Source of the DNA: an uncultured Erysipelotrichaceae bacterium
GTDB lineage: Bacteria; Bacillota_I; Bacilli_A; RF39; UBA660
Reading direction: 5' to 3'
Assembly: GCA_902789225.1 (NCBI GenBank)
Contig: CADANC010000013.1
Location: 1-34,125, forward strand
DNA: 34,125 nucleotides
Shown here one piece after another: positions 1,275 to 28,875 of the stretch (its first letter is position 1; each line of letters opens with the position of its first letter). Position numbers and translations under genes: made by a program. The notes under the pieces are model-generated. The model did no database searches and was not told where the DNA came from. It saw only the letters and a program-made list of their open reading frames with translations.

Positions 1275-1294
1275 AAAAATATGATTTAAGAATA

Positions 1295-1412
1295 GTTCAT
1301 TGAAAAAAATGCCGAAAGTGGCAAAAGTTCTCAATGAATTTTTTATTGCTTAAGATCTCGTTGAGAAAAAGTGGCAAAAGTGGCAAAAATTCTCAATGAA
1401 AATTATTTGCTT
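1295..1412. repeat. Two tandem ~57-bp units carrying inverted repeats
   Basis: Unit A (1295-1351) and unit B (1356-1412) both contain GTGGCAAAAG, then TCTCAATGAA, and end in TTGCTT. Each also begins with a TTGA-containing arm (TTCATTGA or CGTTGAGAA) that can pair with the TCAATGAA arm, so each unit can form a long stem-loop. They lie upstream of the AbiE promoter. They could be regulator or integrase sites, or small RNA hairpins; the sequence does not decide. Confidence 0.55.
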
Positions 1413-1458
1413 TTTGACAAATAAACTGAAAATCCTTAATTTATCAGTTTTTAATATA

Positions 1459-1495
1459 TTGACAATGATACGGATAAATGATATAATGTCCGTAT
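1459..1495 (+). promoter_or_regulatory. AbiE operon promoter with overlapping operator
   Basis: TTGACA (1459-1464), a 17-bp spacer and TATAAT (1482-1487) form a near-perfect sigma-A promoter. The perfect 7-bp inverted repeat ATACGGA (1468-1474) / TCCGTAT (1489-1495) spans the -10 box. Such a repeat fits known AbiEi behaviour: the antitoxin represses its own promoter by binding inverted repeats. Transcription would begin near 1494. Confidence 0.75.
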
Positions 1496-1517
1496 GAATG
1501 AACAAAGAGGTGAAATT

Positions 1518-2973: not shown

Positions 2974-2983
2974 GAGGTTTTGT

Positions 2984-3184
2984 ATGAGCAGTATATTTGA
3001 TTGGATTGGGAAAAATGCTTATTGGATATTTGATGGAATAGGTGTAATAGCCATAACAGGAATATTAGGTGTCATTTTCAAGAAAAAAAAGAATAAAGGA
3101 AAAAATATTAGTATTGTTCAAAAAGGAGGAAAAAACTCTATAAATATTCAGAACAATAACATAGGAAGTGAACATGATGAATGA
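2984..3184 (+). CDS. Small single-pass membrane protein with a G/N/Q-rich C-terminal motif
   Basis: A 66-residue protein with three parts. Residues about 13-32 form one hydrophobic segment (YWIFDGIGVIAITGILGVIF). A strongly basic stop-transfer stretch KKKKNKGK follows, then a polar tail with QKGGKNSINIQNNNIG (about 45-60). An AGGAGG site eight bases before ATG argues for strong translation, 10 bases after the AbiEii stop. The tail motif is repeated almost exactly at the N-terminus of the next protein (QSGGKNSENIQNND), whose start overlaps this gene. I know no family for it. The layout, with a membrane-active N-terminus and a motif shared with the neighbour, resembles amyloid-signalling effectors; that function is inferred. 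The stop is TGA. Confidence 0.7.
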   Translation: MSSIFDWIGKNAYWIFDGIGVIAITGILGVIFKKKKNKGKNISIVQKGGKNSINIQNNNIGSEHDE

Positions 3185-4256
3185 TGTAGAAGTAAAACAA
3201 TCAGGAGGAAAAAATTCTGAGAATATACAAAATAATGACATGTCAAAAAATAACATAATTATATATAATCAAAGTGGGTTGTCACTTGAAGAAGCAAAAA
3301 CTATTGCATTAGATGTTTATAAAGCAGAAGAAGCAAAAAAGTATTCGGATGAATCATGGGAAATAACAAAAAGAAGAGTTGAAGAATTAGTTACAGATTT
3401 CTTAAAACAAGCATTTGATGAAACCCCCAATCATATACAAAATTTAAAAAAGCCGTCTGTGCAGCAATCGTTTCTAAATGCTGAAAAAGGATATGCTTCT
3501 GATGAAACTGGAACTACCAAAAATAACTATATAGATATTATGAAATCACGATTATGTGTAGAAGATAGAAGTATCTTACAAATATTTGAAGATGAAGCAA
3601 TAAAATTAGTGGAAAAGTTGACGAAGTCACAGATGAATTATTTGACTTTTATGTTCTTAACATATTCATATCCCAAACCATTAAATGATATAAGAAATGT
3701 TATTGATTACTGTAACAAATTGTGCGAATTATATGATATATCATTTAAAAAAGACATAACTTTAATTTCTTTAGAAGCCGTAGGTGCATGTACGCCATTA
3801 GGTGGAGCACGTAGTATGAAAACAATTCAACAACGCTTTCGTGAAATGATACCAGGAATGTTTTATAAAGGCCAAACATCGGAGGAAATTATAAATGAAT
3901 TAGAAATAGATGACATAAAAATAATTCAACCAGTATTAACAAAACATGTATGGAATAATGCGTTATTACAAATTGATGCATTGAATTTAGAAACATTAAA
4001 AACATCAATAAAAAAGTATGAATTAAACTTTATTGAGGATAAACTTGTTAACATGTTTAATAAACAAATAATGAATGAAAGTGAAATTAAAAATAGATTA
4101 ATAGAAATAAACCAGAAAATGCAAGAAGTATTGTCATTATGGGATGATAATGAATTTAATTCAAGAAGAATAACTCCACAAGGTGAGATAATTGCAATAA
4201 GCAATTATAATAATTTATATAATGATAATTTAAAGTTTGAAAAATATATTAATTAA
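3174..4256 (+). CDS. LPO_1073/Vpar_1526-family-like protein with N-terminal shared motif
   Basis: About 360 residues. The first ~30 carry QSGGKNSENIQNND, nearly the same as the tail of the 66-residue membrane protein just upstream. Next comes IIIYNQSGLSLEEAKTIALDVYKAE, which I recognise as the opening of the LPO_1073/Vpar_1526 protein family, of unknown function and often in accessory loci. The rest is mostly helical, including EEAKKYSDESWEITKRRVEELV and an ALDSV-free, charged C-terminus; I see no catalytic motif. I prefer ATG 3174 (GGAA six bases upstream) over the upstream GTG 3168; it overlaps the previous gene by 11 bases, so the two are probably co-translated. Likely a sensor or regulator of the membrane protein, by inference only. 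Confidence 0.7.
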   Translation: MMNDVEVKQSGGKNSENIQNNDMSKNNIIIYNQSGLSLEEAKTIALDVYKAEEAKKYSDESWEITKRRVEELVTDFLKQAFDETPNHIQNLKKPSVQQSFLNAEKGYASDETGTTKNNYIDIMKSRLCVEDRSILQIFEDEAIKLVEKLTKSQMNYLTFMFLTYSYPKPLNDIRNVIDYCNKLCELYDISFKKDITLISLEAVGACTPLGGARSMKTIQQRFREMIPGMFYKGQTSEEIINELEIDDIKIIQPVLTKHVWNNALLQIDALNLETLKTSIKKYELNFIEDKLVNMFNKQIMNESEIKNRLIEINQKMQEVLSLWDDNEFNSRRITPQGEIIAISNYNNLYNDNLKFEKYIN

Positions 4257-4259
4257 AAA

Positions 4260-4280
4260 AGCTTAGTCATCTTCTAAGCT
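4260..4280. terminator. Bidirectional terminator between cargo 1 and integrase remnant
   Basis: AGCTTAG (4260-4266) pairs with CTAAGCT (4274-4280). A run of A precedes it, so it is a T-tailed terminator mainly for the minus-strand integrase remnant; it also closes the plus-strand cargo operon. Confidence 0.5.
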
Positions 4281-4735
4281 ATCTATAACAGAAACAACAG
4301 AGTCGAGGGCAGTACTAAACATATGTGAATATGTATTTAGTGTTTCCTCGATTTTTGTATGTCCTAAATATTTGGCTACTAATGTAACATTAGCACCATT
4401 ATTAATAAGTAGTGATGCACATGAATGTCTAAAATCATGTAATCGGATCTATTTAACATTAGCTAATTTGCAATTAACATTTTTATGATTAGTGAGTGTA
4501 TTACTACATACAGGAAGCATATCCCCAGCTACAAAGAAATTATCATTGAATCCTGGTATCTCTTCTACCTCGTTTTTCATCATTTTAAGGTCATTTGTAA
4601 GAACTTGTGGCATCTTTAATATTCTTATACTGTTTTTAGTTTTTGGAACCGAGAATCGCCAATTTTTTACGGATCCACAACGGTCATTAATTTGCTTGGT
4701 TATACTTAAAGTTCTATCTTTAAAAAGGATATATT
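4263..4735 (-). pseudogene. Tyrosine recombinase (phage/ICE integrase), truncated and with internal stop
   Basis: On the minus strand a C-terminal integrase catalytic domain can be read: KDRTLSITKQINDR, then KTKNSIRIL, then IRLHDFRHSCASLL (catalytic His and Arg), AKYLGHTKIEETLNTYSH (catalytic His and nucleophile Tyr), ending EDD-stop at 4263. A TAG at 4449-4451 interrupts it just before IRLHDFRH. Everything N-terminal of about 4735 is missing. The sequence to 4809 that replaces it ends in a short plus-strand frame (KYNEFYNCMMEYYKLLKRN-stop), perhaps the tail of a disrupted host gene. It is clearly paralogous to the remnant at 13388-14235. A dead gene, it cannot mobilise its block. Confidence 0.85.
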
Positions 4736-4851
4736 TAAATGATTCAAATAAATATAATGAATTCTATAACTGTATGATGGAATATTATAAGTTATTAAAA
4801 AGAAACTAATTATATGATTATTAGTTAAATGGTTAAGTAATATTTCTATGA

Positions 4852-4857
4852 TATAAT
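4852..4857 (+). promoter_or_regulatory. Putative -10 box of glycosyltransferase gene
   Basis: TATAAT in CTATGATATAATTAC lies 18 bases before the start codon, followed by TTAGGTGACG as ribosome site. No convincing -35 is seen. Confidence 0.45.
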
Positions 4858-4874
4858 TACAATTAGGTGACGAT

Positions 4875-5711
4875 ATGATAGATATAATAATTCCAGTATA
4901 TAATACTCCAAAATTAGATTTAGAAAGATGTTTAAATAGTATTCTAAATCAAACATATAATGATTATAAAGTATATATAATAGATGATGGTAGTAATAAT
5001 AATACTAAAAACTATTTAGATGATTATGTTAATGATAAAGATAATTTCATAGTAAAGCATATTAAAAATAATGGAGTAAGTAATGCAAGAAATATAGGAA
5101 TTGATATTTCTAATTCTAAATATATAACTTTTATTGATGCTGATGATACTATAGAGAATAACTTTTTACTAGAAGCATATGAATTAATTGAAAAAAATAA
5201 TTTAGATATTATAATTGGTGGATATAATGAAATTAAAAATAATAATATAGTTAGAACTAGATTATCATTACCTGGATTACATATTTATGAAGGAAAAACT
5301 ATTGATAATTTTTTTGAAAAGTTATTAACAAGTAAAACAAATGAATCTAATAAAGAAATAGGGGATTGTCCTACAGGAAGAATATATACTAGATTATTTA
5401 AAAGAGCTAGTATAGGAAATTTAAGATTTGATACTAATACTCATATGAGTGAAGACACACTATTTATGATTGACTATACTTATAAAGCAAAGAGAATTGG
5501 TATAGTTGATAGAATTTGGTATAACTATTATATAAATGATTATTCAATATCTAATGGTACTAAAAAAGAAATGCTAGAGCATAATATTAAAGAATTTATA
5601 GAAGAAATAGAAAAAAGAATGAATAAAGAAGAAAATAAATCTTTAAAGGTATCTTATCAAGCTAGAATTGATAAAGCAAATAATGCAATTAAAGAATTAA
5701 GAGGAAACTAA
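4875..5711 (+). CDS. Family 2 glycosyltransferase (GT-A fold)
   Basis: The 278-residue protein opens with the textbook GT2 N-terminus: DIIIPVYNT, then LERCLNSILNQTY, IIDDGSNNNT (nucleotide-sugar binding), and GVSNARNIGIDIS. ITFIDADDTIE follows at about residues 91-101, where the DxD motif coordinates the metal and sugar nucleotide. The second half has the acceptor-side stretch with FDTNTHMSEDTLFMIDY, containing the family's ED general-base region. It should add a sugar to cell-envelope polysaccharide or a glycolipid on the cytoplasmic face; donor and acceptor are unknown. No membrane segments are seen. The catalytic frame is intact. It stands between a dead integrase and small orphan genes, so it may be part of the resident genome. 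Confidence 0.88.
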   Translation: MIDIIIPVYNTPKLDLERCLNSILNQTYNDYKVYIIDDGSNNNTKNYLDDYVNDKDNFIVKHIKNNGVSNARNIGIDISNSKYITFIDADDTIENNFLLEAYELIEKNNLDIIIGGYNEIKNNNIVRTRLSLPGLHIYEGKTIDNFFEKLLTSKTNESNKEIGDCPTGRIYTRLFKRASIGNLRFDTNTHMSEDTLFMIDYTYKAKRIGIVDRIWYNYYINDYSISNGTKKEMLEHNIKEFIEEIEKRMNKEENKSLKVSYQARIDKANNAIKELRGN

Positions 5712-5734
5712 TAGTAATTGGATAAGGATGAATA

Positions 5735-5842
5735 ATGATGGATAGATACACAATTGAAGAAAAAATAGAAATAATTAATATAATAAATGAAATGCAAAAA
5801 GTAATTAGAAAATATAAAAAAGGAAAAAATCTATTAAGCTAA
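5735..5842 (+). CDS. Very small hypothetical protein (35 aa)
   Basis: An ATG-ATG pair follows AAGGATGAAT and opens a frame of 35 codons ending TAA at 5842. The product is one charged amphipathic helix (EEKIEIINIINEMQKVIRKY). It lies between two co-directional genes with close spacing, which favours translation. There is no recognisable family, and random occurrence in AT-rich DNA is possible. Confidence 0.35.
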   Translation: MMDRYTIEEKIEIINIINEMQKVIRKYKKGKNLLS

Positions 5843-5877
5843 TTAAAGATTATATGGAGTTATGAAGGAGAAATATA

Positions 5878-6315
5878 ATGATAATTAATGAAAAAAAGTT
5901 AACAATAGACGATTATGAAAAATTAAAAGAAGATGAACTGCTTTTTATTACCTATCCAGGAAGAATGGGAGATATCAAAGGATGTTCATTTGTTATAAAG
6001 AAAAATAATAATATTATTTTTTATAGAATAGATGATTTATATGAATTTAAAGGAAATATTTATGAAAAATTTCCTATATGGAATGAAACATTAAAAAATT
6101 ATAGTGAAAATAAAGAATCTAAAAAATATGAAATTATTTATATGGGAATGGGTAATCTTTTAGCAGTTGATAAAAGTGTTTTTAGAGAATTTGAAACACT
6201 AATTAAAGAAAGAACTAGCGAGATAAAAGAAAACTATGAAGATAAATTAAAATTTGGTATTGTTTGTTATTCATTTTGGAAAGAGACAGTATATCAAATG
6301 TATAACCATGAATAA
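5878..6315 (+). CDS. Hypothetical cytoplasmic protein (145 aa)
   Basis: A strong GAAGGAG ribosome site lies seven bases before ATG. The protein alternates strands and helices and has no signal peptide or membrane segment. It shows FITYPGRMGDIKGCSFVI near residues 23-40 and a central YMGMGNLLAVDKSVF. I do not recognise the family. The composition (Lys, Glu, Asn, Tyr) matches its neighbours and gives no hint of recent transfer. Confidence 0.7.
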   Translation: MIINEKKLTIDDYEKLKEDELLFITYPGRMGDIKGCSFVIKKNNNIIFYRIDDLYEFKGNIYEKFPIWNETLKNYSENKESKKYEIIYMGMGNLLAVDKSVFREFETLIKERTSEIKENYEDKLKFGIVCYSFWKETVYQMYNHE

Positions 6316-6395
6316 TGTATGTTTAGTATGAAGATCAAAAAAAAGAATAAATTACTAAAAATATATGATATATTAAAAATAATAGAGGTAAGATT

Positions 6396-6533
6396 ATGGC
6401 AAAAAAGAATGATTGGTTAGAAATAAATAGAAGAAAGCATGGATTATTATGGTGGCTTTGTATTGGATGGTGGGAAAGACCTACAGCAACTATATTACTG
6501 ATAAATTGGTTACAACAGCGTTGGAATTATTAA
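6396..6533 (+). CDS. Short Trp-rich protein (45 aa)
   Basis: ATG follows AATAGAGGTAAG with good spacing and the frame ends TAA at 6533. The product has seven Trp in 45 residues, including LLWWLCIGWWERPTATILL, so it probably sits in or on the membrane as one segment with aromatic girdles. Similar short 'WWLxIGWW' proteins occur in Bacillota without known function, as I recall. Such a Trp-rich frame is unlikely by chance in DNA this AT-rich, which supports it as real. Confidence 0.6.
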   Translation: MAKKNDWLEINRRKHGLLWWLCIGWWERPTATILLINWLQQRWNY

Positions 6534-6540
6534 AACTTAA

Positions 6541-6571
6541 AAAAAAGATATCTATTATAGATATCTTTTTT
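6541..6571. terminator. Bidirectional terminator
   Basis: AAAAAAGATATCTA and TAGATATCTTTTT form a near-perfect stem around a TTA loop, with A and T runs on either side. It closes the plus-strand small-gene cluster and the minus-strand helicase gene, whose stop codon overlaps its edge. Confidence 0.85.
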
Positions 6572-9500
6572 AGAATAATTCTAATTGTTCAATTTGTTGT
6601 CCACAACTTATTAAAATTAATTCTTTAATAGTTTCATATGATTTAGCAAATGAATTTGGTATTTCGAGTACGGTAATACCTTTTTCTTTGCATATCTGTG
6701 ATTTCCTTGCATCACATTTTTCTCTATCTAAATTTCCAAAATGTTCTCCACCTTGTAATTCGATTGCTATTCTCGGAATAAGATTTGTATCTTCTATTTC
6801 ATAAAGTACAACATCAAATTCTAATTTTGAATTAGCTAATAGTGGATCATTATGGAATAGAGAAGCTAATTTAACATTTCTTTTCGCTTGAAATGTATTA
6901 TTTACGCTACAGAAATGTGATATTGTTTGGAAGAATATATCTTCATTTTTACTTCCATTAGAACTTCCTATTTGAATAGAATATGATTCATTTGGAGGTA
7001 CTTCAATTTTTCCTCTTCTTGCAACATAATTTGCTAGATTATATAAGTCATCTTTTTTGTCTACTGATAATTTGTCTAGTGCTTCTATATCTGATACTAC
7101 TATTAAGTTCTTTTTAGCTCTTGTAACAGCAACGTTTGTTATTTCAGAATTGTTTTTTATCCAATCAAATGTTTTTTTACTAGTTTTTGGAGATATTGAA
7201 GTTGAAATAATTATTGTATCTTTTTCTGCTCCTTGTACTTGATGAATTGTTCCACAAGTTACATCTTTAATTCCATTTTCATCAATCATTTTTGTTATTA
7301 GGTTTTGTTGATTTTTGAATGGAGTAATAATAGCAGCATCTTTTAATTCATTTCTTTTTATGTAATCTATTATTGCTTGAGCTTCTTCGTAGTTTTCGTT
7401 TCTCAATCTTGAATTAATATTCTTAACATTGATTAATGATAGATTACCTTCTTCTGAAAGATAGTCTAGATTTAGTTTTCCTTCATAGAAACGTTTATTA
7501 GAGAAGTTTATGATACTTCTACCACATCTATAATGGTAAGTTAACATGATATCTTTAGATATTTTGTCATGTCTTTTCATTATATCTAAAATTGAATTAG
7601 TACAATAATCATAATCTTCAGATATTTTGTATTCTTCTTTTAATTTGTCGTTTATTATTTCTTCTAATACTATTACTGGCTTAAGTTGATTAGTATCACC
7701 AACTAATAGTAAATTTTTGGCACGTGCTATTGGAAGTAGGGCAGTTGCACAATTACATTGTCCAGCCTCATCCATTATTACTAAATCGAATGTATGCCTT
7801 GCTGTTCCTAATCGTGCTGCTGAAATATTGGTTGTAATTATTACTGGAAAGACTAATTCTAATAGTCTTATATTGTAATCATTTTGACACCATTGATTAA
7901 AAGCAGTTATACGTTCATCTTCATCTTTGATAAGGCATATATTAATTAATGGTTCATATGTTGCAGTTTTTAATTTTTTAATATATTTTATTGATTCAAA
8001 ATACATATATTGTTTAAATGCTCTGTCTTCAGAAACAGATGTTACTAACTCAAGTACATCATTATTTGTAATAATAGGCATTTCTTTATATTCGTTTATT
8101 AATAAACTAAGTTGTTTTTCAACATTTTGATATAGTCGATTATTTGTATTATCTAATGATTCTAATAATCTTTTTGCACTATTTATTTTGTTTCTTAATT
8201 CTCTTCTAGATTCATATAATTCTAAATGATGTAAAAGATTTTTATTTCCTTCATTAGTTCTGTTTTTAATTCTTTCAAGTTTTTCTTCATCTGGTTCTAA
8301 TGTAGATTGATAATTATATAAATCAAGAATTCTAAGTGTTGCTTTAGCAATTTCTTTTCTATTGCCTAATCTTAAAAAGGGGAAAGGAATATCATCTTCT
8401 CCTCTATAAGAAAAGGTTAGTTTTTCAATTATTCCATTTACAGGTTTGTTGTTGGAAGAACAAACTAATGTAGTTCTATTATTAAAGAATGCACTTAAAA
8501 TTACGTTTAATATAGTTTGAGTTTTACCAGTTCCTGGAGGACCTTGAACATAGTTAACAGGATATTTCATTGAGTTATAAATAACTCTCATCTGATCTAT
8601 ATTAACTTTGTTATCGTATATTACGATTGAAGGTTCATTTCTTTTTGCACCTCTTCGGTTAGAGTTACCAAAAAAGGCTTTTAATGGATATTCTAATTCA
8701 CCATTTTCTTGTTTTTCTTCTATTACTTTAAAGGTAGGAGCTAAGTTAGCACTTATAGATCGTTCCAAAATCATAAATTCTGGCATTTGATTTATAATCT
8801 CTGTATCTCGTAAATTAGCTCTTATTAATTCAGTATAAGATTTGTAATAATCTTTAATGTTGTTTGTAATATTATTAACAAATTCTTCTGGATCGATATC
8901 TACATAAGAAGTTAAAGAATGTCTTTTATCTTTTATCAAGAAACTTTGATTTACACGTGGAATATCCTTAATAACTAATCTTTTATTTTTAGGATTGAAG
9001 AATACATCATAATATATAACAACATATTTTTTCTCTATTTCTTCTATAGATAATACTGATAGTATTAAATAACATGCATATGAATCTAATTTTTTTTCAT
9101 CATATTTTTTAATATAACTAATTACTATTTTTGATTGTTCTTCGTTTAATAGTATTTGTTTTTCTCTAAGCAATGTTGTTTTGTCTATTCCTTCAATAAG
9201 GCATGAATCTTTTTGAAATGGATCGTTATCTAATTCATTACATTTTAAATAGTATCTTAATATATTATTATTAAATGATTCGAATTTTAACCATTCGGCA
9301 TCTTCTTTGTTATGTTCTATTTTTTGAATTAATTCTTCTGGAACATCATATGTTGTAAAATCTAATAATTTGGCAGAAAGAATCCTATCAAATCTAATTG
9401 TTGCTTCTAGGCAATCAATTGATTTTTGATCATTAAACATTTCAACGATTAATATTTTTTTCTTTAGATCAATATCCTTTATGGCAATCCAATAATATGT

Positions 9501-9587
9501 AGTTTCGTTTTGACTATTTTGGTACGAAATGTCTAACCATTTTCCTGTTTTTATACTTTCGGATATTAATAATTCAATATTATCCAT
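6570..9587 (-). CDS. SF1 (UPF1/DNA2-like) helicase with C-terminal DUF2726-like nuclease domain
   Basis: A 1005-residue intact protein. Residues ~1-90 (SIKTGKWLDISYQN, YYWIAIKDID) look like a WYL-type SH3-barrel sensor. The helicase core has Walker A VQGPPGTGKTQTIL near 345-358, motif II VIMDEAGQC near 603, GDTNQL (motif III) soon after, and late motifs GTIHQVQGAEKDTIII (~782) and NVAVTRAKKNLIVV (~825), as in UPF1/DNA2-type SF1 proteins. Residues ~870-990 (LEFDVVLYE, IAIELQGGEHFG, DARKSQICKEKGI, VLEIPN) match the DUF2726 region, a PD-(D/E)XK-like fold with E/D and ELQ ligands. It probably unwinds and cuts nucleic acid. It diverges from a 184-residue gene that may be its partner. Defence role is inferred from family context. 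Confidence 0.82.
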   Translation of the reverse strand: MDNIELLISESIKTGKWLDISYQNSQNETTYYWIAIKDIDLKKKILIVEMFNDQKSIDCLEATIRFDRILSAKLLDFTTYDVPEELIQKIEHNKEDAEWLKFESFNNNILRYYLKCNELDNDPFQKDSCLIEGIDKTTLLREKQILLNEEQSKIVISYIKKYDEKKLDSYACYLILSVLSIEEIEKKYVVIYYDVFFNPKNKRLVIKDIPRVNQSFLIKDKRHSLTSYVDIDPEEFVNNITNNIKDYYKSYTELIRANLRDTEIINQMPEFMILERSISANLAPTFKVIEEKQENGELEYPLKAFFGNSNRRGAKRNEPSIVIYDNKVNIDQMRVIYNSMKYPVNYVQGPPGTGKTQTILNVILSAFFNNRTTLVCSSNNKPVNGIIEKLTFSYRGEDDIPFPFLRLGNRKEIAKATLRILDLYNYQSTLEPDEEKLERIKNRTNEGNKNLLHHLELYESRRELRNKINSAKRLLESLDNTNNRLYQNVEKQLSLLINEYKEMPIITNNDVLELVTSVSEDRAFKQYMYFESIKYIKKLKTATYEPLINICLIKDEDERITAFNQWCQNDYNIRLLELVFPVIITTNISAARLGTARHTFDLVIMDEAGQCNCATALLPIARAKNLLLVGDTNQLKPVIVLEEIINDKLKEEYKISEDYDYCTNSILDIMKRHDKISKDIMLTYHYRCGRSIINFSNKRFYEGKLNLDYLSEEGNLSLINVKNINSRLRNENYEEAQAIIDYIKRNELKDAAIITPFKNQQNLITKMIDENGIKDVTCGTIHQVQGAEKDTIIISTSISPKTSKKTFDWIKNNSEITNVAVTRAKKNLIVVSDIEALDKLSVDKKDDLYNLANYVARRGKIEVPPNESYSIQIGSSNGSKNEDIFFQTISHFCSVNNTFQAKRNVKLASLFHNDPLLANSKLEFDVVLYEIEDTNLIPRIAIELQGGEHFGNLDREKCDARKSQICKEKGITVLEIPNSFAKSYETIKELILISCGQQIEQLELF

Positions 9588-9693
9588 ATATTATCATCTC
9601 ATTACTAATATATCATAATTAAAACTAAAGAAAAATAAATTAATGTAATTTATTGTGTGATATAATAATTCGTATAAAAAGAGGAATCGAGTT
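9588..9693. promoter_or_regulatory. Divergent promoter region, helicase / 184-aa gene
   Basis: On the plus strand TATAAT (9661-9666) precedes AGAGGAA and the ATG at 9694. On the minus strand TATGATATAT-like sequence precedes GAGATGA and the helicase start. The shared 106-bp region suggests the two genes may be co-regulated. No clear operator palindrome is seen. Confidence 0.5.
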
Positions 9694-10248
9694 ATGGATG
9701 AAAAAAGATTAGTTGAGCATGCAAATGGTTATATTAAACAAATGGCAAAAGGAATAAATCCTTTAACTGGGGAGAATGTTCCAGATAGTGATTTAATAAA
9801 CAATGTTAAAATTTCAAGATGTTTGTTTTATGTTTCGGAAGTCTTAGATAAGTATACTGAATTAATTGAAAACGGTGGAAAAAGAAATAAATCTAAAGCA
9901 AAATTTTATGCCAAAAGTGAAGACTTTAATAACTTTGTATATTTTAATGAACCAACATATTTAAGCATACTTACTAAAAAAATTAATGAATTATATAATA
10001 AAGATGATATGAGAAAATTACCAGCATCTTCTATTTCTAATTGGCTAGTTTCCAAAGGCTTTTTGATGAATTATACAAGAGAAGATGGAAAATCATCTAA
10101 AAAGCCAACATCTTTAGGTAATAATTTGGGAATTAGCCAAGTAGTAAAAGAAGGCAAAAATGGTCCATATTCTCTTAATGTATATAATAGGGAAGCACAA
10201 AAATTTATTATTGATAATATAGAAGAAATATCTAAAAGTATTCAGTAA
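9694..10248 (+). CDS. Hypothetical protein, probable partner of the SF1 helicase
   Basis: 184 residues with a good AGAGGAA site. The first third is helical (EHANGYIKQMAKGINPLTG, then ISRCLFYVSEVLDKY). The C-terminal half has SSISNWLVSKGFLMNY, a basic KSSKKPTSLGNN loop, and a short sheet ending in a helix, which reads like a winged-helix nucleic-acid-binding fold. I recognise no named family. Divergent, promoter-sharing placement beside the nuclease-helicase suggests a regulator or specificity partner; this is inference. A 460-bp non-coding region follows. Confidence 0.65.
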   Translation: MDEKRLVEHANGYIKQMAKGINPLTGENVPDSDLINNVKISRCLFYVSEVLDKYTELIENGGKRNKSKAKFYAKSEDFNNFVYFNEPTYLSILTKKINELYNKDDMRKLPASSISNWLVSKGFLMNYTREDGKSSKKPTSLGNNLGISQVVKEGKNGPYSLNVYNREAQKFIIDNIEEISKSIQ

Positions 10249-10409
10249 GCGTGACCATCGGTCGCAAAGTGTGACAAGTTGGCGAGAAGTAACTTCTGGA
10301 ACAAATGACCATAAGCTTATTGCATCAAAAAGAGGACTTTTTAAGGATATAAAATTCTTTTCAGTTTTTTATAAAGCTTATACAAATACACTTACAAATA
10401 CAAACTATT

Positions 10410-10469
10410 AAAATCGCATAAAAATACGTAAAATGTTAAAAACAAAGAATCCCGTATTTATGCGGTTTT
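10410..10469. repeat. Long imperfect inverted repeat in intergenic region
   Basis: AAAATCGCATAAAAATACG (10410-10428) is inverted as CGTATTTATGCGGTTTT (10453-10469), with a two-base length difference and a 24-base loop. It may be an extended terminator or a replication/integration site at the edge of cargo block 2. Upstream, 10249-10409 holds a small AAAAAG-CTTTTT hairpin near 10330 that can end the 184-aa gene, and otherwise nothing recognisable. Confidence 0.5.
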
Positions 10470-10508
10470 AAATGGTTAGGAAATAACAGATACCGAACAA
10501 GCATACGT

Positions 10509-10620
10509 CCCCCTGAAGAGAGCGATTAACTTATGTTGCTCTCATTTTTGTTAGGTAATATAAGGACTTCATCAATTTCATAGTTCTCTAAAAATAGAAT
10601 TAGGTACCATTTAGGTACCA
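10509..10620. other. Attachment-site-like boundary 2
   Basis: CCCCCTGAAGAGAGC (10509-10523) is the same 15-mer as at 1167-1181. GAGAGC pairs with GCTCTC (10538-10543) before ATTTTT, again a terminator. TTAGGTACCA and TTTAGGTACCA then lie in tandem at 10600-10620, about 77 bases after the core; boundary 1 has 72. A cargo block and a broken integrase follow, exactly as in the first block. Conservation of core, hairpin, box sequence and spacing is seen directly; identity as attL/attR or attB is inferred. Confidence 0.55.
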
Positions 10621-10692
10621 TTTTCATTTAAAAAGGATATTTTTAGAGCATTTTTATAGCAATAGAATTAATGGATTGTAAGAAAATAGTGA

Positions 10693-10698
10693 TATAAT
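10693..10698 (+). promoter_or_regulatory. -10 box of HEPN cargo operon
   Basis: TATAAT lies 18 bases before the ATG, with TAGGTGG as ribosome site. The -35 region is weak, so regulation by another factor is possible. Confidence 0.5.
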
Positions 10699-10715
10699 AA
10701 GATGTAGGTGGTAAT

Positions 10716-12449
10716 ATGAACCATAGAGATTTAGGAATAATTTATAATAAAACAGTTGAACATCCTGAAAATGGAGTTGGAACAATCGATAATTTATATG
10801 CTATATATAAAGACAATAAAGTATCATTTTGTGTCGAAGTTAAATTTATTAAAAACGATAAAAGCGTTTTTGGATTATTTGGAATAGATTTATTAAAGGG
10901 AGAAATTACATCTTTATCATATTATAACTACTTATGGTATTTAAAAAATATCATTAAAATTGATTTTAAAACGGGCTATTTAAATATTTATAAAATGTTG
11001 AAAAAAAAGAAATATGATAATTGTCAATTGAATGCTATAAATTGTTTTATAACAATCGATAATGATGAAGATTTAATAAGCTATGAATCTGATTCATATT
11101 GTGAATTATTAGATAATGGAATTAAAGTAAAACCAGATATAGCAATTTTACATACTTCCAGCGGATTGTCAACGTCGTATTTTGAAATAAACGAAAAAGA
11201 TTATAATAAAAAAAATTTTAGTAATATTGATTTATCAACTAAGGTGGAAGTATTTATTAAATATAATAATGACTATTATTCTGAATTTGGAAATATAAAG
11301 AAGATTTTAAAACAAGATAAAACAATAGGATTTATAATAGAGCCTGTTGAAACAACATTGTTAAATAATATTATTCCAGGTAATATAAATTTTCAAAATA
11401 TTACTCCATTAGAAATGGTTAGCATTATAATGAATCAGTCAAAAGTGACTAAGCTCGCCAATGAACTACCTAATAAAAATCTTCAGAAATATAGATATAT
11501 TACATTTCTTCAAAATGTTGAAATAGATAAGGAAGAGTTAATAATAGGCGAAATGATATTATCAAAAAGATTAGATGATATAAACTTTTCAAACATGAAA
11601 TTGCCTAAAAATAAATTTGTTTATGTAACCATATACACTTCTGCAAAAAATATAGCAGATGCAATCAACATTTCACAAAAGAAAATCAAGAACATTTTGA
11701 ATTTTGTCGAATTAACACAAAAAAATAGTACATTTTTTGAATTGTATGACAAAAAAGAAGAAATTACAAATTGGGATATAAATAATTTATTTGTTGATTA
11801 TAAAGTTAATCATTCATATTTGATTTATAATGTATTAAATCCAAAACAAGTTATTTATAATGATTTTTCTGCAATGACTTTAAAGAAAATTGCTAATATA
11901 TCAAAAGAGGATAATATAATTAAATACTATGAAGAATTAGAGAAAATATTATATCTTCCCAACTCAGTTGTTGATGATTTATATGAATCCATTTATTGGT
12001 TAAATAAAGGTTTGGAGTCAATTAATTATGATTTAAATAGATCTGTTATTTATTTAAATATTGCTTGTGAATATGTAACAAAAGGTGAAAAAGGCGAAAG
12101 CTTTATAGATAAGCATCCTGAAATTAAAAAATTTAAAAGGCCACTAAAGAAATATATAAAGGAAAATGTTGTTGACGAAGATATTTATACAGATTTGATA
12201 GGAATTGTTATGGGAGCACTGAATTATACAACATTGCCTAATCGATTTGAATGTATGTTAAGGCGCTTAGATCTTAAATTTTCCGAAAATGAGATATCAA
12301 TATATAATAAAATGAGAAAAGCTAGAAATGCTATAGTTCATAAAGAATATAAAATAGAAGTCTTTAAGCATGATATTATTATCTTCTATATTATGCTTTC
12401 TAAGATTATTTTTGTAAAGATGGTGAAAAAATCTAGTGAAAATATATAA
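10716..12449 (+). CDS. Large protein with C-terminal HEPN-type RNase motif
   Basis: 577 residues. Residues 1-430 are a mostly beta and mixed region (FCVEVKFI, VKPDIAILHTS, FIIEPVE) that I do not recognise; it may be a sensor. From about 435 the protein turns helical: SIYWLNKGLESI, then NRSVIYLNIACEYV (an ApeA-like HEPN first helix with E), YTTLPNRFECMLRRL, and at 535-544 KARNAIVHKE. The RNAIVH string is a canonical Rx4H HEPN ribonuclease motif (Arg537, His542). HEPN domains of this layout cleave RNA in abortive-infection systems such as ApeA. The next gene overlaps by 14 bases, so the two are likely one system. Placement between an att-like site and a dead integrase marks it as cargo. Function is inferred. 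Confidence 0.72.
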   Translation: MNHRDLGIIYNKTVEHPENGVGTIDNLYAIYKDNKVSFCVEVKFIKNDKSVFGLFGIDLLKGEITSLSYYNYLWYLKNIIKIDFKTGYLNIYKMLKKKKYDNCQLNAINCFITIDNDEDLISYESDSYCELLDNGIKVKPDIAILHTSSGLSTSYFEINEKDYNKKNFSNIDLSTKVEVFIKYNNDYYSEFGNIKKILKQDKTIGFIIEPVETTLLNNIIPGNINFQNITPLEMVSIIMNQSKVTKLANELPNKNLQKYRYITFLQNVEIDKEELIIGEMILSKRLDDINFSNMKLPKNKFVYVTIYTSAKNIADAINISQKKIKNILNFVELTQKNSTFFELYDKKEEITNWDINNLFVDYKVNHSYLIYNVLNPKQVIYNDFSAMTLKKIANISKEDNIIKYYEELEKILYLPNSVVDDLYESIYWLNKGLESINYDLNRSVIYLNIACEYVTKGEKGESFIDKHPEIKKFKRPLKKYIKENVVDEDIYTDLIGIVMGALNYTTLPNRFECMLRRLDLKFSENEISIYNKMRKARNAIVHKEYKIEVFKHDIIIFYIMLSKIIFVKMVKKSSENI

Positions 12450-13377
12450 GTTATTAATAGAATATTCTAAATATTTAAAGAATAATAATTCTGAAGTTTC
12501 GTTATTATTGAATTTATATGGAAGATTGGAAACTATTAAAAATGATCCTGAATATATAGATTACTTTCAATTATTAAGAAATTACTACTATTATTATTTT
12601 TATTCGCCTGTAATTACATATGATGTTATAAACAATATATACTTAAATAGTAAGTTTAACCAATTTATAACAAAAAATAAATGTGAAAAAATATTACAAA
12701 ATGAGGATATTAAAACATTTGTTGAGCAATCAAAAAAAGTAAATAATATCATAATAAAAAAAATAAGTGAATTTTTTTCACAAGAGTATAAAGATTCAAG
12801 TGTTGAAAACTATTATTGTAATTCTATTATGAATGAACTTGGTAAAGCTAACGTTTTACTTCCTATATCAATTATTAACAGTAATTCTAAATGTGTATCT
12901 AAATATGCAGAAAATAGAGGAAAAATTCAAAAAGAAGGAATATTTACTTATCCATATTTAATAACAAAAGAATTTATCGATGAGCAATTTCAAGCCAAAA
13001 TTGAACTTTCAATTATAAATGCATTTGAAACTATGAATTTAATATATTCGTTAATAATTAAAATACTTTATGACGTAATTTTTGATAAAGTTATTTATTT
13101 AAAAAAGAAAGAAGTTAAAATAAATTTAAGCAAAGATAAAAGTAATTTTAAGGTTATTGAGTTTGAAAGTAAGAATGTATCTTTAATTATACATGAGTTA
13201 GAAACAATTATTATTGATGAAAATATATATTTTCCTTGTTCGTACACAAAACAACTAATGCCAGAAAATAAAGTCAATTATAAATGCTACGTTTTAAATA
13301 TCAGTGATAATACTTTCTTTAATTTTAATATTTTAGATTCCATAGAATTAATGTCTTTATTAAAAAAAGCCGATTAA
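12436..13377 (+). CDS. Hypothetical partner of HEPN protein (313 aa)
   Basis: Starts at GTG 12436, inside the end of the HEPN gene, with GGTG about 11 bases upstream; no closer ATG fits. The 313-residue product has an aromatic helical N-terminus (FQLLRNYYYYYFYSPVITY), a central YCNSIMNELGKANVLLPISII, and a C-terminal beta-rich part (KVIEFESKNVSLIIHELETIII, YFPCSYTKQLMP). It has no signal peptide and only one moderately hydrophobic stretch. I know no family and see no catalytic motif. The 14-base overlap with the HEPN gene implies coupled translation. It could be an inhibitor (antitoxin-like), a second sensor, or a scaffold. Confidence 0.62.
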   Translation: MKIYKLLIEYSKYLKNNNSEVSLLLNLYGRLETIKNDPEYIDYFQLLRNYYYYYFYSPVITYDVINNIYLNSKFNQFITKNKCEKILQNEDIKTFVEQSKKVNNIIIKKISEFFSQEYKDSSVENYYCNSIMNELGKANVLLPISIINSNSKCVSKYAENRGKIQKEGIFTYPYLITKEFIDEQFQAKIELSIINAFETMNLIYSLIIKILYDVIFDKVIYLKKKEVKINLSKDKSNFKVIEFESKNVSLIIHELETIIIDENIYFPCSYTKQLMPENKVNYKCYVLNISDNTFFNFNILDSIELMSLLKKAD

Positions 13378-13392
13378 ATCGACCTTTTTATT
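13367..13392. terminator. Bidirectional terminator after cargo 2
   Basis: AAAAAGCCGAT and ATCGACCTTTTT pair with one small bulge; the stop codon of the 313-aa gene lies in the loop. It serves both the cargo and the minus-strand integrase remnant. The matching position in block 1 also has a bidirectional hairpin. Confidence 0.65.
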
Positions 13393-14235
13393 CTAATCTA
13401 TCAATCAATTCAACTACCTCATTTAAAGCAAAGTTAAATAGATGTGTATAAGTGTTTAAAGTTTCTTCAATTTTAGTGTGTCCAAGATATTTAGCAACTA
13501 CAGTTATATTAGCACCATTATTAACAAGTAGAGATGCACAAGAATGTCTGAAATCATGAATCCTAATTTGAGGTACACCGGCAAGTTCACAGTTGTGATT
13601 TTTTCTTGATGTAATAGTATTACTAGCTAAAGGAAAAGCATCTCCAATAACAAAGTAATCACCATTGAATTCATACTCTTTAGATACCTCTTCTTTGAGC
13701 ATTTTAAGATCGTTTAAGAGAACTTTATTTAGCGGTAGGATTCTTATACTACTTTTAGTTTTAGGAGTGGAAAATAGGAGCTCTTTAACAGAACCACCAC
13801 GATCAGTAATCTGCTTTTTTATTGATAATGTTTTATTAACAAGATCAATGTTTTTCCATGTTAATCATCTAAGTTCTCCCTTTCTTAAATCACAGTAATA
13901 TAATATCTCAAACATAACCTTTTTTTGTAATTCAGGTTCAACAGAAATAAACTATTTCCATTGGTCATAAGTGAAATACATCATCTCTTTAGGTATATCA
14001 GAAGAATTACTAAATTTTGTCATTTTAGAATAAACCTTATTTAAGTTGAAATCATACCAGGTCATAGCAAAGTTCAATACTGACTTAAAACCTTTAATAT
14101 GTCATTTTTATATCGAGTTGAGATATTTGATTCGTTCATTTCTTTTTTTCAATTGTCGTAGTGATTTATATTAAAATCTTTTAATTTAACATTTAATAAA
14201 CATTTTAAATAATCCTCCGATTTTCTTATATATTT
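13388..14235 (-). pseudogene. Tyrosine recombinase (integrase), multiply interrupted
   Basis: Nearly the whole integrase can be read on the minus strand with lesions. Near 14225 comes IRKSEDYLKCLLNVKLKDF; then YDN-stop-KKEMNESNISTRY with a TGA at 14149-14151; a frameshift near 14095; FKSVLNFAMTWYDF; a TAG at 13952-13954 after YFTYDQWK; DLRKGELR then a TGA at 13865-13867 where Gly is expected; KTKSSIRILPL; and IRIHDFRHSCASLL, AKYLGHTKIEETLNTYTH with all catalytic residues. The last intact stretch (13388-13702) could express a C-terminal domain but not a working integrase. It resembles integrases of phages and Tn916-like elements and is a paralogue of the remnant at 4263-4735. Confidence 0.85.
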
Positions 14236-15308: not shown

Positions 15309-18300
15309 ATGAAACTAATAGATAATCATATTGAAAAACTTGGAGATGATCTTAAAAAAAATATTGTAGATAATTCTAAGCTAAGAATATGTGCATCTAT
15401 TTTTTCTATGTATGGTTATGAAGCTTTAAAAAAAGAATTATCAGAGATAGATGAATTTAAATTCATTTTTACAGATCCTACTTTTGTTGAAAAGACAGTT
15501 AATAGCAAGGAACAAAGATTATTTGAAATATATAGTAGAAACAGGGAAAAGAGCTTAAGTGGATCCCCTTTTGAAGTAAAATTAAAAAATGAATTAAATG
15601 GAAAAAGTATTGCACAAGAATGTGGAGAATGGATAAAAAGAAAAGCTAGATTCAAAACAAATATTGGTGGGGAAGCTATACAAAGATTTATGATTCTTCA
15701 AAACAACAATTCAAGCATTACTTATACAAACATGGAGGAGTTTTCTACAATTGGCTTGGGATATGAGAAAGATAATGCTATATACATGCCAATCACAAAA
15801 ATTGATGATAATTATGAATTTACAAAATCATATATAGATTCATTTGAACAAATATGGAACGATGATAAACATTTAAAAGATGTTACAAATGAAGTTATTG
15901 ATTTTATGTCTGATTTATATAAAGAAAACTCACCAGAATTCATTTATTATATTACCTTGTATAATATATTTACTGAGTTTTTAGAAGATATTTCTGAAGA
16001 TGAATTAGCAAACGAAAAAACAGGATTTAAAAAGTCAGTAATATGGAATACATTATATGATTTTCAAAAAGATGCAGTGCTTGGAATTATTAATAAATTA
16101 GAAAAATTTAATGGATGTATACTAGCTGACAGTGTAGGTTTAGGAAAAACTTATACTGCTTTAGCAGTTATTAAATACTATCAAGAAAGAAATAAAAGTA
16201 TTTTGGTATTATGTCCTAAAAAACTAAGCGAAAATTGGAATACATATATTAATCCATATAATGATAATCCATTAATAGATGATAGATTTAATTATAAAGT
16301 GCTATTTCACACAGATTTATCTAGAACGCATGGCCATTCAAACGGAATAGATTTATCTAGAGTAAATTGGGGAAATTATGATTTAGTTGTAATAGATGAA
16401 TCACATAACTTTAGAAATAATCAAGCACGAAATGATAGAGAAACAAGATATGACAGGTTAATGAATGAAGTAATGAAAGCAGGAGTAAAGACAAAAGTAT
16501 TAATGCTATCTGCAACTCCTGTTAATAATAGATTTACAGATTTAAAGAATCAGTTAGCTCTAGCATATGAGGGACATACTGATGTTATTGATAGTAAAAT
16601 AAGTAATACTAAATCTATAGATATAATTTTAAGAAATGCACAAACAATTTTTAATGAATGGAGCAAACTTGAACCATCTGAAAGAACTAGTCAAGAATTA
16701 TTAAAAAGATTAAATTCAAATTTTGATTTCTTTAAATTATTAGATAGCGTTACTATTGCTAGATCAAGAAAACATATTGAAAAATACTATGATATGAATT
16801 CTATTGGTAAGTTTCCAACAAGATTAAAACCGTTAAGTATGTCACCAGATTTAACAGATATAAGTGGATTTATGACAATAAAACAGATAGCTGAAGAATT
16901 AAATAAATTAAATATGTGTATCTACACTCCTTTTGATTATATTCTTCCTAATAAATTATTATATTATCAAGATATGTATGATATTTCTGTTAAAGGAGGA
17001 CAATCTGTTCTTCATCAAGCAGATAGAGAACGTAGTTTACAAATATTAATGAGAATAAATTTTTTAAAAAGATTAGAGAGTTCTGCAGCTTCTTTTAGAA
17101 TTACACTAAATAAAGTCCTTGAACAAATTGAAAATACTCTTCAAGCTATTGAAGGCTTTGAAAACAGAGGAATAAAAAAATCTTTTGAAAACATTGAAGT
17201 AACTAATTATAATCCAGATGAGGATATAGACGATTTACTAGAAGACCAATTTAGTATTGGTAAAAAAGTTAAAATCAATCTTGAAGATATGAACTATATT
17301 GGGTGGAAAGAAGATTTATGTTCAGATCAAATAATTCTAAAAAATTTAGTTTCTGAAATGAGTAGAATAACACCAGAGCATGATACTAAATTAAATGAAC
17401 TGGTAGATCTAATAATTAACAAAGTAAATCATCCAATTAATGGTGACAATAAGAAAGTAATAATATTTAGTGCATTTGCTGATACTGCTGATTACCTATA
17501 TAAAAGCATAGCTGGTAATTTTAAAAATCATTATAATCTACAAACATGTAAGATAACTGGATCAGGTATTAATGAATGTACAATAGATATGAATAAAGAA
17601 TTTAATAATTTACTATTAAATTTCTCACCAAAGTCAAAACATAGAGATTTGTTAGATCCTAATTCAAGTAATGATATAGATATCCTAATTGCAACAGATT
17701 GTATTTCTGAAGGACAAAACTTACAAGACTGTGATTATCTAATTAATTATGACATTCATTGGAATCCAGTTAGAATAATTCAAAGATTTGGACGTATTGA
17801 TAGAATTGGTTCTGATAATGATGTCATACAGTTGGTTAATTTTTGGCCAAATATATCATTAGATGATTATATTAATCTTAAAAATAGAGTTGAGAATAGA
17901 ATGATAATCAGCGATTTAGCAGGAACTGCCTCAGACAATCCTCTAACCAATAAAGAGTTAGATATGGATTATAGAAAAGCTCAACTTCAAAAATTAAAAG
18001 AAGAAGTCGTTGACCTAGAAGAAATGAATTCAGGTATTTCAATAACTGATTTAGGATTAAATGATTTTAGAATGGACCTAGTAGAATACGTAAAAGAAAA
18101 TGGAGAATTAGATGGAATACCATTTGGGTTACACTCTGTAGTACATGAAAATAAATCATTAGGAATTGAAAAAGGCGTTATTTATGTTTTGAAGAACATA
18201 AATAATGAAGTAAATATAGATAGCATGAACCAATTGCATCCATTTTACTTAGTTTATATTAAGAATGATGGAGAAATATTATCAAATCACTTGAATGTAA

Positions 18301-18569
18301 AAAACACTTTAGATCTTTTAAGAATAATGTCTAAAGGAAAAAAAGAGCCAATTAAATCTGCATATAACATATTTAATGAATTTACTAATGATGGAAAAAA
18401 TATGAAGTTGTATTCTGAATTATTAAGTCAAAGCATAGAGTCTATGATTAATATAAAAGAACAAAATGATACTGAAAGCTTGTTTACAAGAGGTGGAACT
18501 ACAATGTTAAGAAATGATATTAAAGGTTTAGAAGACTTCGAATTAATTTCATTTATGGTGGTTGTATAG
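15309..18569 (+). CDS. SNF2-type helicase with degenerate N-terminal PLD-like domain
   Basis: 1086 residues. Residues ~1-170 (IDNHIEKLGDDLKKNIVDNS, LRICASIFSMYGYEALK, FIFTDPTFV, then STIGLGYE) resemble the phospholipase-D-like domain of restriction-associated helicases, but no HxK motif is seen, so it is probably inactive. The SF2 core has Walker A LADSVGLGKTYTAL (~271), VIDESHNFRNN (~362), MLSATPVNN (~399), and a C-terminal lobe ATDCISEGQNLQDCDYLIN with QRFGRIDRIGS (~795-835), where motif VI lies. This is a DNA translocase related to DrmD/HepA types. First gene of the operon; the next starts one base after its stop. It likely moves on DNA to support the Mod/Res pair. Confidence 0.85.
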   Translation: MKLIDNHIEKLGDDLKKNIVDNSKLRICASIFSMYGYEALKKELSEIDEFKFIFTDPTFVEKTVNSKEQRLFEIYSRNREKSLSGSPFEVKLKNELNGKSIAQECGEWIKRKARFKTNIGGEAIQRFMILQNNNSSITYTNMEEFSTIGLGYEKDNAIYMPITKIDDNYEFTKSYIDSFEQIWNDDKHLKDVTNEVIDFMSDLYKENSPEFIYYITLYNIFTEFLEDISEDELANEKTGFKKSVIWNTLYDFQKDAVLGIINKLEKFNGCILADSVGLGKTYTALAVIKYYQERNKSILVLCPKKLSENWNTYINPYNDNPLIDDRFNYKVLFHTDLSRTHGHSNGIDLSRVNWGNYDLVVIDESHNFRNNQARNDRETRYDRLMNEVMKAGVKTKVLMLSATPVNNRFTDLKNQLALAYEGHTDVIDSKISNTKSIDIILRNAQTIFNEWSKLEPSERTSQELLKRLNSNFDFFKLLDSVTIARSRKHIEKYYDMNSIGKFPTRLKPLSMSPDLTDISGFMTIKQIAEELNKLNMCIYTPFDYILPNKLLYYQDMYDISVKGGQSVLHQADRERSLQILMRINFLKRLESSAASFRITLNKVLEQIENTLQAIEGFENRGIKKSFENIEVTNYNPDEDIDDLLEDQFSIGKKVKINLEDMNYIGWKEDLCSDQIILKNLVSEMSRITPEHDTKLNELVDLIINKVNHPINGDNKKVIIFSAFADTADYLYKSIAGNFKNHYNLQTCKITGSGINECTIDMNKEFNNLLLNFSPKSKHRDLLDPNSSNDIDILIATDCISEGQNLQDCDYLINYDIHWNPVRIIQRFGRIDRIGSDNDVIQLVNFWPNISLDDYINLKNRVENRMIISDLAGTASDNPLTNKELDMDYRKAQLQKLKEEVVDLEEMNSGISITDLGLNDFRMDLVEYVKENGELDGIPFGLHSVVHENKSLGIEKGVIYVLKNINNEVNIDSMNQLHPFYLVYIKNDGEILSNHLNVKNTLDLLRIMSKGKKEPIKSAYNIFNEFTNDGKNMKLYSELLSQSIESMINIKEQNDTESLFTRGGTTMLRNDIKGLEDFELISFMVVV

Positions 18570-18570
18570 T

Positions 18571-19536
18571 ATGAATAGTATATATGACTATATAAAATTC
18601 CCAATAGATTCTAAAGCTGATAAAGAATTGGAAATAGATAATTTTTTAAAGCCTAAAAATATATCAGATGTTGAAAAAAATATATTTAAAGATGTTGTAA
18701 TAGGTATAACAGTTAAAAATATGTTAAATAATTCTACAACTGAATTAAAAAATAAGTCTATAAAAGAATTTACTTATCAAGAAATAATAGTTCTTGAAGT
18801 AGAAGTCAATAATCCTGTGTCAGTATATGATGTGGCCATAGTTGTGGGAAGAGCAATCTTTTACCCTACTATGCTGTTTATAAAATATGGAAGCAGATAT
18901 AAAATTGGTTATATTAATAATTCGTTTGGTAAAGTTAAATATGATATTAATGTTGTAAAAGATATTATGTTTACTGGATGGATAAATGAAAAAAAACTAA
19001 GTTCTAGATCTATGGCAGTATTAAATGCTTTATCATATGATTCAATAAAAAATAATGATTTTTATAATACTTATAGAAATTATATAAATGTTATAAAAGA
19101 ATATAAAGGATCATATATATCAATCGATAATGCTATAACAATTCTAAATGACAAAGCACTAAAAGCAATACCTAATTTATTAATGAAATTAAAATTATTG
19201 TGTGTAAGTATAAATATTAATAATTTTATTACTGGATTACAAGTTTATAAAACAAGTCGTCTAGATAAATACATAGATGATAATTATAATTACACACTTC
19301 TATGTGTAGATGATTTATATTCATATATTGAATCATCAAAAGAGTTTACCATATCAAATTTTGAGACTTTACTAAATGCTATAAAGAATCAATATAGAAA
19401 TGATAGATATGAAAATCAATATAAGAATTCAATATGTAAAAATTGTGTTTATTATAATGGTTACTGTTGTGAAAATAAAAATGTAATTAGAAAAAGAACA
19501 ACAAGAATACAATGTCAATTTTTTGAAGGAAGGTAA
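18571..19536 (+). CDS. DUF4391-like protein with C-terminal cysteine cluster
   Basis: I use ATG 18571, one base after the helicase stop, with GGTGG about 10 bases upstream; a TTG nine bases earlier sits on that site. Residues ~55-130 (QEIIVLEVEVNNPVSVYDV, then IFYPTMLFIKYGSRYKIGYI) follow the same strand pattern as the DUF4391 protein encoded next, so it may be a diverged paralogue. The C-terminus has CKNCVYYNGYCCENKN, then QCQFF near the end: a CxxC plus later cysteines that could bind zinc. A helical middle separates the two. I know no named family for the full length. Its place inside the Mod/Res operon points to an accessory subunit. Confidence 0.65.
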   Translation: MNSIYDYIKFPIDSKADKELEIDNFLKPKNISDVEKNIFKDVVIGITVKNMLNNSTTELKNKSIKEFTYQEIIVLEVEVNNPVSVYDVAIVVGRAIFYPTMLFIKYGSRYKIGYINNSFGKVKYDINVVKDIMFTGWINEKKLSSRSMAVLNALSYDSIKNNDFYNTYRNYINVIKEYKGSYISIDNAITILNDKALKAIPNLLMKLKLLCVSININNFITGLQVYKTSRLDKYIDDNYNYTLLCVDDLYSYIESSKEFTISNFETLLNAIKNQYRNDRYENQYKNSICKNCVYYNGYCCENKNVIRKRTTRIQCQFFEGR

Positions 19537-19540
19537 TTAT

Positions 19541-20149
19541 ATGTTTAATCTCCCAAAAGAATGTTATGTAAATAAATTTTTGCCAAAGAAATTATTCTAT
19601 GAAAAAGTAGCAATATCTTCTGGTGCAAAAAATGAATTTACAAATTTAGTTGAAAGAATTACATGGTTATATAAAATAGCTCCTGAAACTATTGGTATTC
19701 CAAAGACTGAAATGGTTGAAGAAATACAAATATTTCAAATTGATACAAGGGAGAAAAAGATACCTTTATCTGTAATTAAGACAATTACAAAAGGTGTAAA
19801 ATATCAAATACTATTTCTTATTAAATATAACAATGACTATTGTTATACATTGGTAGAAAATGACACTATATATAACACTAATTGGAATGAAGATATAGAT
19901 TTTCAATTTAATGGATTAAATCTAGAAAATGTTTGGAATAATATAATTAAAGAAGTAATAAAAGAAGCTGATAATAATTCTTCTATTGATGAAATATTAG
20001 ATAATAAAAATAAAATAGACGAGTTAAAAAACAAAATTAATAAATTGAAAATTCAAGCTGACAGAGAAAAACAATTTAATAGACAAATTGAATTGGATCA
20101 TGAAATAAAAAAATTAAATAAGGAATTGGAGAAATTAATAAATGAATAA
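19541..20149 (+). CDS. DUF4391 domain protein
   Basis: ATG 19541 is preferred, four bases after the previous stop and behind GAAGGAAGG; an upstream in-frame TTG lies inside the site. The N-terminus (NLPKECYVNKFLPKKLFYEK, ERITWLYKIAPETIGIPKTE, EIQIFQIDTREKKIPLSVI, YQILFLIKYNNDYCY) matches DUF4391 as I know it, a family regularly found with restriction-associated helicases and type III Mod/Res. Residues ~150-202 form a charged coiled coil (NKNKIDELKNKINKLKIQAD, LNKELEKLI), likely for assembly. The biochemical role is unknown. It overlaps Mod by 8 bases. Confidence 0.82.
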   Translation: MFNLPKECYVNKFLPKKLFYEKVAISSGAKNEFTNLVERITWLYKIAPETIGIPKTEMVEEIQIFQIDTREKKIPLSVIKTITKGVKYQILFLIKYNNDYCYTLVENDTIYNTNWNEDIDFQFNGLNLENVWNNIIKEVIKEADNNSSIDEILDNKNKIDELKNKINKLKIQADREKQFNRQIELDHEIKKLNKELEKLINE

Positions 20150-21980: not shown

Positions 21981-21995
21981 AAAGGAGAAAACTAA

Positions 21996-28859: not shown

Positions 28860-28875
28860 TTAATTAGGTGATTTT

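Follow-up and report, generated by a model that had tools for sequence, protein, structure and literature searches.

Where HEPN families retain an intact Rx4-6H motif, prediction or experiment identifies them as metal-independent RNases (PMC3710099). ApeA (PF18739) is described as a HEPN system, with no dedicated partner given by Anantharaman et al., and the title of a 2026 preprint, as it appears in the reference list of PMC13405049, states that deoxydinucleotides activate ApeA. Two-gene HEPN systems are also known, namely HepT/MntA and RnlA/RnlB (PMC7641770, PMC3710099). P4-like satellites have a defence hotspot between psu and int (PMC9122126), and Gram-positive PICIs have accessory genes near int, with defence cargo (PMC13376191).

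Here we analyse a pair of overlapping genes in a 34,125-nucleotide stretch of DNA from an uncultured Erysipelotrichaceae bacterium (contig CADANC010000013.1), referred to below as the window. We give roughly an even chance to the reading in which the pair is carried as cargo by a small integrative element and forms an anti-phage abortive-infection module with a HEPN ribonuclease that the 313-aa protein restrains or licenses. New here are a protein pair outside every family searched and an element family for which no description was found in the literature searched. Defence cargo beside a satellite integrase and HEPN defence proteins are both of a known kind.

The gene pair and its other copies

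The pair comprises the only genes between the att-like end at 10509 and the remains of a tyrosine integrase at 13391-14217 (Table 1). The original prediction, made from the window alone, named a 577-aa and a 313-aa gene with a 14-base overlap, an RNAIVH motif with Arg537 and His542, an att-like site and a dead integrase, and all of these are present.

Table 1. Features of the element carrying the pair, of the first element in the window, and cargoes of the element family.
Feature	Position or locus	Strand	Remarks
Left end of integrative element	10509..10547	+	core CCCCCTGAAGAG, then terminator-like hairpin (GAGAGC...GCTCTC) and T run
Paired AGGTACC repeat inside left end	10599..10620	+	possible integrase arm sites, a putative role
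Extended -10 promoter-like TGATATAAT of HEPN gene	10690-10698	+	candidate, by consensus match only
Shine-Dalgarno AGGTGG of HEPN gene	10706-10711	+	sequence reading
Putative HEPN gene, 577 aa (P0001)	10716..12449	+	ATG start; N-terminal ~415 residues unplaced; helical C-terminal region with RNAIVH
Partner gene, 313 aa (P0002)	12436..13377	+	GTG start; family not recognised; 14-base overlap with HEPN gene
Decayed tyrosine integrase, same element family	13388..14217	-	PF00589 E=3.8e-15; open frame only 13388-13702 (104 codons)
Window element 1	1167-4742
Window element 1, left end	1167
Window element 1, AbiEi	1494-2144
Window element 1, AbiEii	2137-2973		PADLOC model PDLC02288 E=1.5e-94
Window element 1, 362-aa ORF	3168-4256
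Window element 1, integrase relic	4266-4742	-
Cargo AbiEi/AbiEii	window element 1, L062
Cargo AbiEi and AbiLi	L061, L040		with AbiLii in L061
Cargo AbiLi/AbiLii	L033		near-identical genes in L042
Cargo AbiLi-like	L037
Cargo PDC-S01 and ApeA-type HEPN	L036
Cargo PDC-S56	L043
Cargo macro domain	L032
Cargo NERD-HRDC	L034
Cargo unknown genes	L038

The search for carriers covered the class, the family and the phylum with approximately 390 genomes apiece, a pattern-based scan of 84,980 GTDB species, and phages, plasmids and IMG/VR; besides the window, it yielded only two. One genome (MAG SIG198, hereafter G565) has both genes intact at another site, with 94% and 95% identity to the window and the same overlap and gene order. 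In the other (MAG RUG14322, hereafter G200), the first 375 residues of the HEPN gene are present at 99% identity, and the contig then ends. No relatives of the pair were identified in phages and plasmids (tblastn with both proteins) or in IMG/VR (pattern scans). Weak matches to the 577-aa protein in four further genomes were rejected as chance: a beta-lactamase-like protein (G221), acyltransferase-like proteins (G124 and G033) and a sequence with internal stops (G070).

The extended -10 element and ribosome-binding site of the HEPN gene are identical in G565 and G200, and the start codon of the 313-aa gene, GTG in the window, is ATG in G565. Between the window and the G565 copy, dN/dS is 0.28 (HEPN gene) and 0.36 (313-aa gene), and thus both have been kept as proteins: both are under purifying selection, with open reading frames, while the integrase decays. 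An arrangement in which the 577-aa protein works alone, as ApeA does, with a sensor N-terminus and a HEPN RNase, beside a 313-aa gene that is unrelated co-travelling cargo, would agree with the account of ApeA by Anantharaman et al. and with the lack of a detectable relation between the 313-aa protein and any defence family. It is nevertheless unlikely, given that both readable copies (window and G565) keep the 14-base overlap and the same start position, that selection on the two genes is comparable, and that wherever both genes could be read they occurred together.

A dedicated partner for the HEPN protein is plausible from these two close relatives. Few genomes carry the pair, and what speaks for a conserved pairing is consistent but shallow, because the sole other full copy is, at such identity, a recent common descendant. 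The conserved partner that had been proposed is therefore retained only in that the two genes occur together in G565, the one other genome readable for both; deep conservation was not found, and the G200 copy is cut short by its contig end.

The C-terminal region of the 577-aa protein

The RNAIVH motif (residues 537-542, R537-N538-AIV-H542) is located 35 residues from the protein end, is the sole R[NDH]xxxH in the protein and is unchanged in G565. It agrees with the HEPN superfamily pattern, Rx4-6H with a polar residue after R (PMC3710099). When the protein is shuffled, R[NDH]xxxH appears anywhere in 2.0% of sequences and within the last 60 residues in 0.19%. Of 86 real ORFs of at least 200 aa in the loci checked, 3 have a motif of this type in their last 60 residues, a count that includes the copies of the HEPN gene.

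Neither protein of the pair has a useful match in Pfam, NCBIfam, PADLOC, PHROGs or PDB chains, and the PDB sequence-search matches, at chance level only, were rejected. HMMER assigned no HEPN or ApeA family to the 577-aa protein at a useful level; in the Pfam scan HEPN_Apea (PF18739) did not match it at E<=5, nor was any N-terminal ApeA-type domain identified. The protein is also absent from the matches of a PF18739 search of G000, the genome that contains the window, among which L047 was rejected as a UvrD-like helicase. The AlphaFold models, built from two-sequence alignments, have mean pLDDT of 30 and 36 and are unusable; helices predicted at residues 416-573 of the 577-aa protein, one of them ending in the motif, have pLDDT below 50.

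For profile comparison we assembled an ApeA-like HEPN profile from four proteins: P0003, a cargo protein of the sister element L036, and three proteins found with PF18739 (L045, L046 and L049). No plasmid relatives for deepening the profile were found for L045, L049 and P0003. With hhalign, the 577-aa protein scores 28.3 against this profile with the motif in register, over a span of only 26-28 columns around the C-terminal motif, and ranks first (best of 60 shuffles, 20.9; best of 63 other proteins, 21.7). After shuffling of residues 524-577 with the motif kept, 0 of 100 sequences attain the score of the real protein; thus, the likeness to ApeA-like HEPN reaches beyond the six-letter motif.

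The C-terminus of the 577-aa protein is likely of HEPN type, and a HEPN fold with RNase activity is predicted from the motif and the weak profile match. Given that HEPN_Apea does not match, the term ApeA-like denotes likeness, and the protein is not placed in the ApeA family. The ApeA-like HEPN domain of the original prediction is thus upheld at the level of the motif only. The missing HMM match, the motif-level similarity, the unusable structure models and the motif frequency in real ORFs are what would be expected if RNAIVH had arisen by chance in a pair with another function. We regard this as very improbable in view of the motif's rarity near the end of shuffled sequences and the extension of similarity past the motif.

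The integrative element

Homology between the window, G200 and G565 starts at 10509/10512, with the first bases of CCCCCTGAAGAG varied in G565. The three copies share this starting base although their chromosomal surroundings are unrelated, which shows that the unit is mobile and has been transferred. The same core is repeated at 1167, 9,342 bp from 10509, and the paired AGGTACC repeat recurs at 1253-1274 (2 matches versus 0.01 expected) and in most related ends. The hairpin-end pattern was identified in 15 of 291 family genomes (0 with the reversed control), and 18 copies of the element family were found. Two of them lie in the window (1167 and 10509), and ends of the same kind occur on contigs 15 and 20 of G000 and in a further 14 genomes of the family.

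In nine loci the cargo is followed by an intact or decayed tyrosine integrase that points back at it. Direct repeats of the 12-base core bound L043 (11.9 kb), L040 (7.4 kb) and window positions 1167-10508 (9.3 kb). A shared left end, a tyrosine integrase, att sites in direct repeat and cargo that varies from copy to copy identify the family as integrative elements with a cargo slot beside the integrase. L033 and L043 carry an integrase, an S24-type repressor and HTH genes, and L033 also a phage-type replisome organiser; in gene organisation they resemble phage satellites.

The element carrying the pair is a decayed copy, with a broken integrase and no right end found. Its integrase remains, interrupted by internal stops and a frame change, align to the intact L033 integrase across 13391-14158 at 56% identity (tblastn). 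In G565 only about the last 21 codons of the integrase are left, with both cargo genes intact.

The att site is a small-RNA terminator in several element copies. This small structured RNA, which lacks an Rfam match, was identified at L008:1290-1410 (minus strand) and consists of two 8-12 bp hairpins, the linker UUCAACCAAAACCCCCUGAA and then a terminator hairpin; the hairpin sequences vary between genomes and the pairing is preserved. It is also present in L034, L036, L037, L042, L043, L060 (G000:C2:11694), L064, L065 and L066, and in several genomes its gene directly follows recG. Insertion of the elements takes place at CCCCCTGAAGAG, and each brings a terminator hairpin of its own, much as elements that target tRNA genes rebuild the tRNA end.

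Cargo of sister elements

We define the slot as the region between the left end and the integrase. Its content in sister elements (AbiE, AbiL, PDC-S01 with an ApeA-type HEPN, PDC-S56) supports the captured-defence position first assigned to the pair, and does so more strongly than the window sequence alone could. PADLOC-listed defence genes occur in 8 of 11 distinct other cargoes, whereas two of the ten nearest genes beyond the left end have a near-full-length PADLOC match (one-sided Fisher about 0.02). The comparison is rough, as cargoes have one to four genes and controls one, but its direction is plain. As the macro domain, NERD-HRDC and L038 cargoes are uncatalogued and some outside genes are defence genes, the slot is enriched in defence rather than exclusive to it. 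G000 has three further elements with AbiE or AbiEi plus AbiL. The cargoes of the other family elements show no resemblance to either protein of the pair.

Other slots contain further candidates. L036:2676-5351 encodes PDC-S01 (AAA_14/DUF4143) and, immediately after it, a 467-aa HEPN protein of ApeA type that falls just short of the HEPN_Apea cut-off (E=9.3e-5); this is possibly another two-gene HEPN module. In L061:6208-9348 (G000 contig 15) and L040:2345-5507 (G412), AbiEi is followed by a gene for a 104-aa protein and then an AbiL-type ATPase gene pair, in place of AbiEii, which suggests that the partner behind the AbiEi regulator has been exchanged. The cargoes at L038:4627-5851 (minus strand) and L034:2305-4843, uncharacterised or NERD-HRDC, are candidate defence genes of unknown kind. 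Window positions 1167-10508 also encode a DUF2726-containing SF1 helicase that resembles MkoC, along with a glycosyltransferase. A further defence cluster at 15309-32811 includes a SNF2 helicase (best PADLOC match C3a139, HKD+Snf2), two DUF4391 genes, type III modification and restriction genes, a RecD-like helicase, and NUDIX, SRA-like/NOV_C and OLD-like ATPase genes.

AbiE, on the neighbouring element, is a type IV toxin-antitoxin system, and the two genes of the pair overlap and are carried by a mobile element. The pair could thus be a plain toxin-antitoxin system comparable to RnlA/RnlB or HepT/MntA, with a HEPN RNase toxin and the 313-aa protein as antitoxin, that mainly stabilises the element. 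This has a low probability: the candidate toxin is unusually large, with an N-terminal region of about 415 residues that would be superfluous in a simple toxin, and an antitoxin fold was not recognised in the 313-aa protein.

Proposed function

The same slot in relatives mostly holds known anti-phage suicide systems, and thus the pair is probably a new phage-defence system, a role that we infer from this association. On the best reading it is a new HEPN abortive-infection candidate, possibly one of two genes. Under this abortive-infection reading, the large N-terminal region of the 577-aa protein would sense infection or keep the enzyme off. Once activated, the C-terminal HEPN domain may cleave cellular RNA via R537 and H542, and the cleavage could halt growth before phage maturation. 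The 313-aa protein may be made through translational coupling at the overlap and, as antitoxin or sensor, would restrain or license the HEPN protein.

A bolder proposal, which we hold only tentatively and consider less probable than the abortive-infection module as such, is that the pair is the founding example of a HEPN defence system that has two components and no sequence relation to any catalogued system. It would combine a HEPN RNase, whose sensor region is of a new kind, with a partner that it requires, on an element family that inserts at a small-RNA terminator and swaps AbiE, AbiL, PDC-S01, PDC-S56 and the pair in one slot.

If the defence reading is right, current defence catalogues have wholly missed a module with a HEPN effector and, possibly, a dedicated partner. 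The 12-base core and hairpin provide a handle for picking defence modules via the cargo slot in a little-studied family of Bacillota for which genomes have been assembled from metagenomes, and the slot yields several uncharacterised modules (e.g., the L038 and L034 cargoes).

Comparison with known systems

The 577-aa protein shares with ApeA a large N-terminal region, a C-terminal part of HEPN type that has R[N/D]xxxH close to its end, and a defence setting, and an ApeA-type HEPN protein occupies the same slot in the sister element L036. Unlike ApeA, it has no Pfam match, its similarity is confined to approximately 28 columns surrounding the motif, its N-terminus is unrelated to that of ApeA in every search made, and an overlapping second gene is kept in both readable copies.

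As in HepT/MntA and RnlA/RnlB, a HEPN toxin candidate and a second gene share an operon, and the view that a conserved partner would in itself be new was overstated given these systems. However, the 313-aa protein has no MNT nucleotidyltransferase match (Pfam, NCBIfam, PADLOC) and matches no RnlB model, and the HEPN protein of the pair is much larger than HepT.

The AbiE and AbiL modules on sister elements are, like the pair, two-gene cargo in the same slot and orientation with the same kind of left end, although they have no sequence relation to it. P4-like satellites and PICIs have in common with this family variable defence cargo of approximately 1-5 kb adjoining the integrase of an integrative element. 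They differ in host group and in att site, which in several cases in the present family is a small-RNA terminator.
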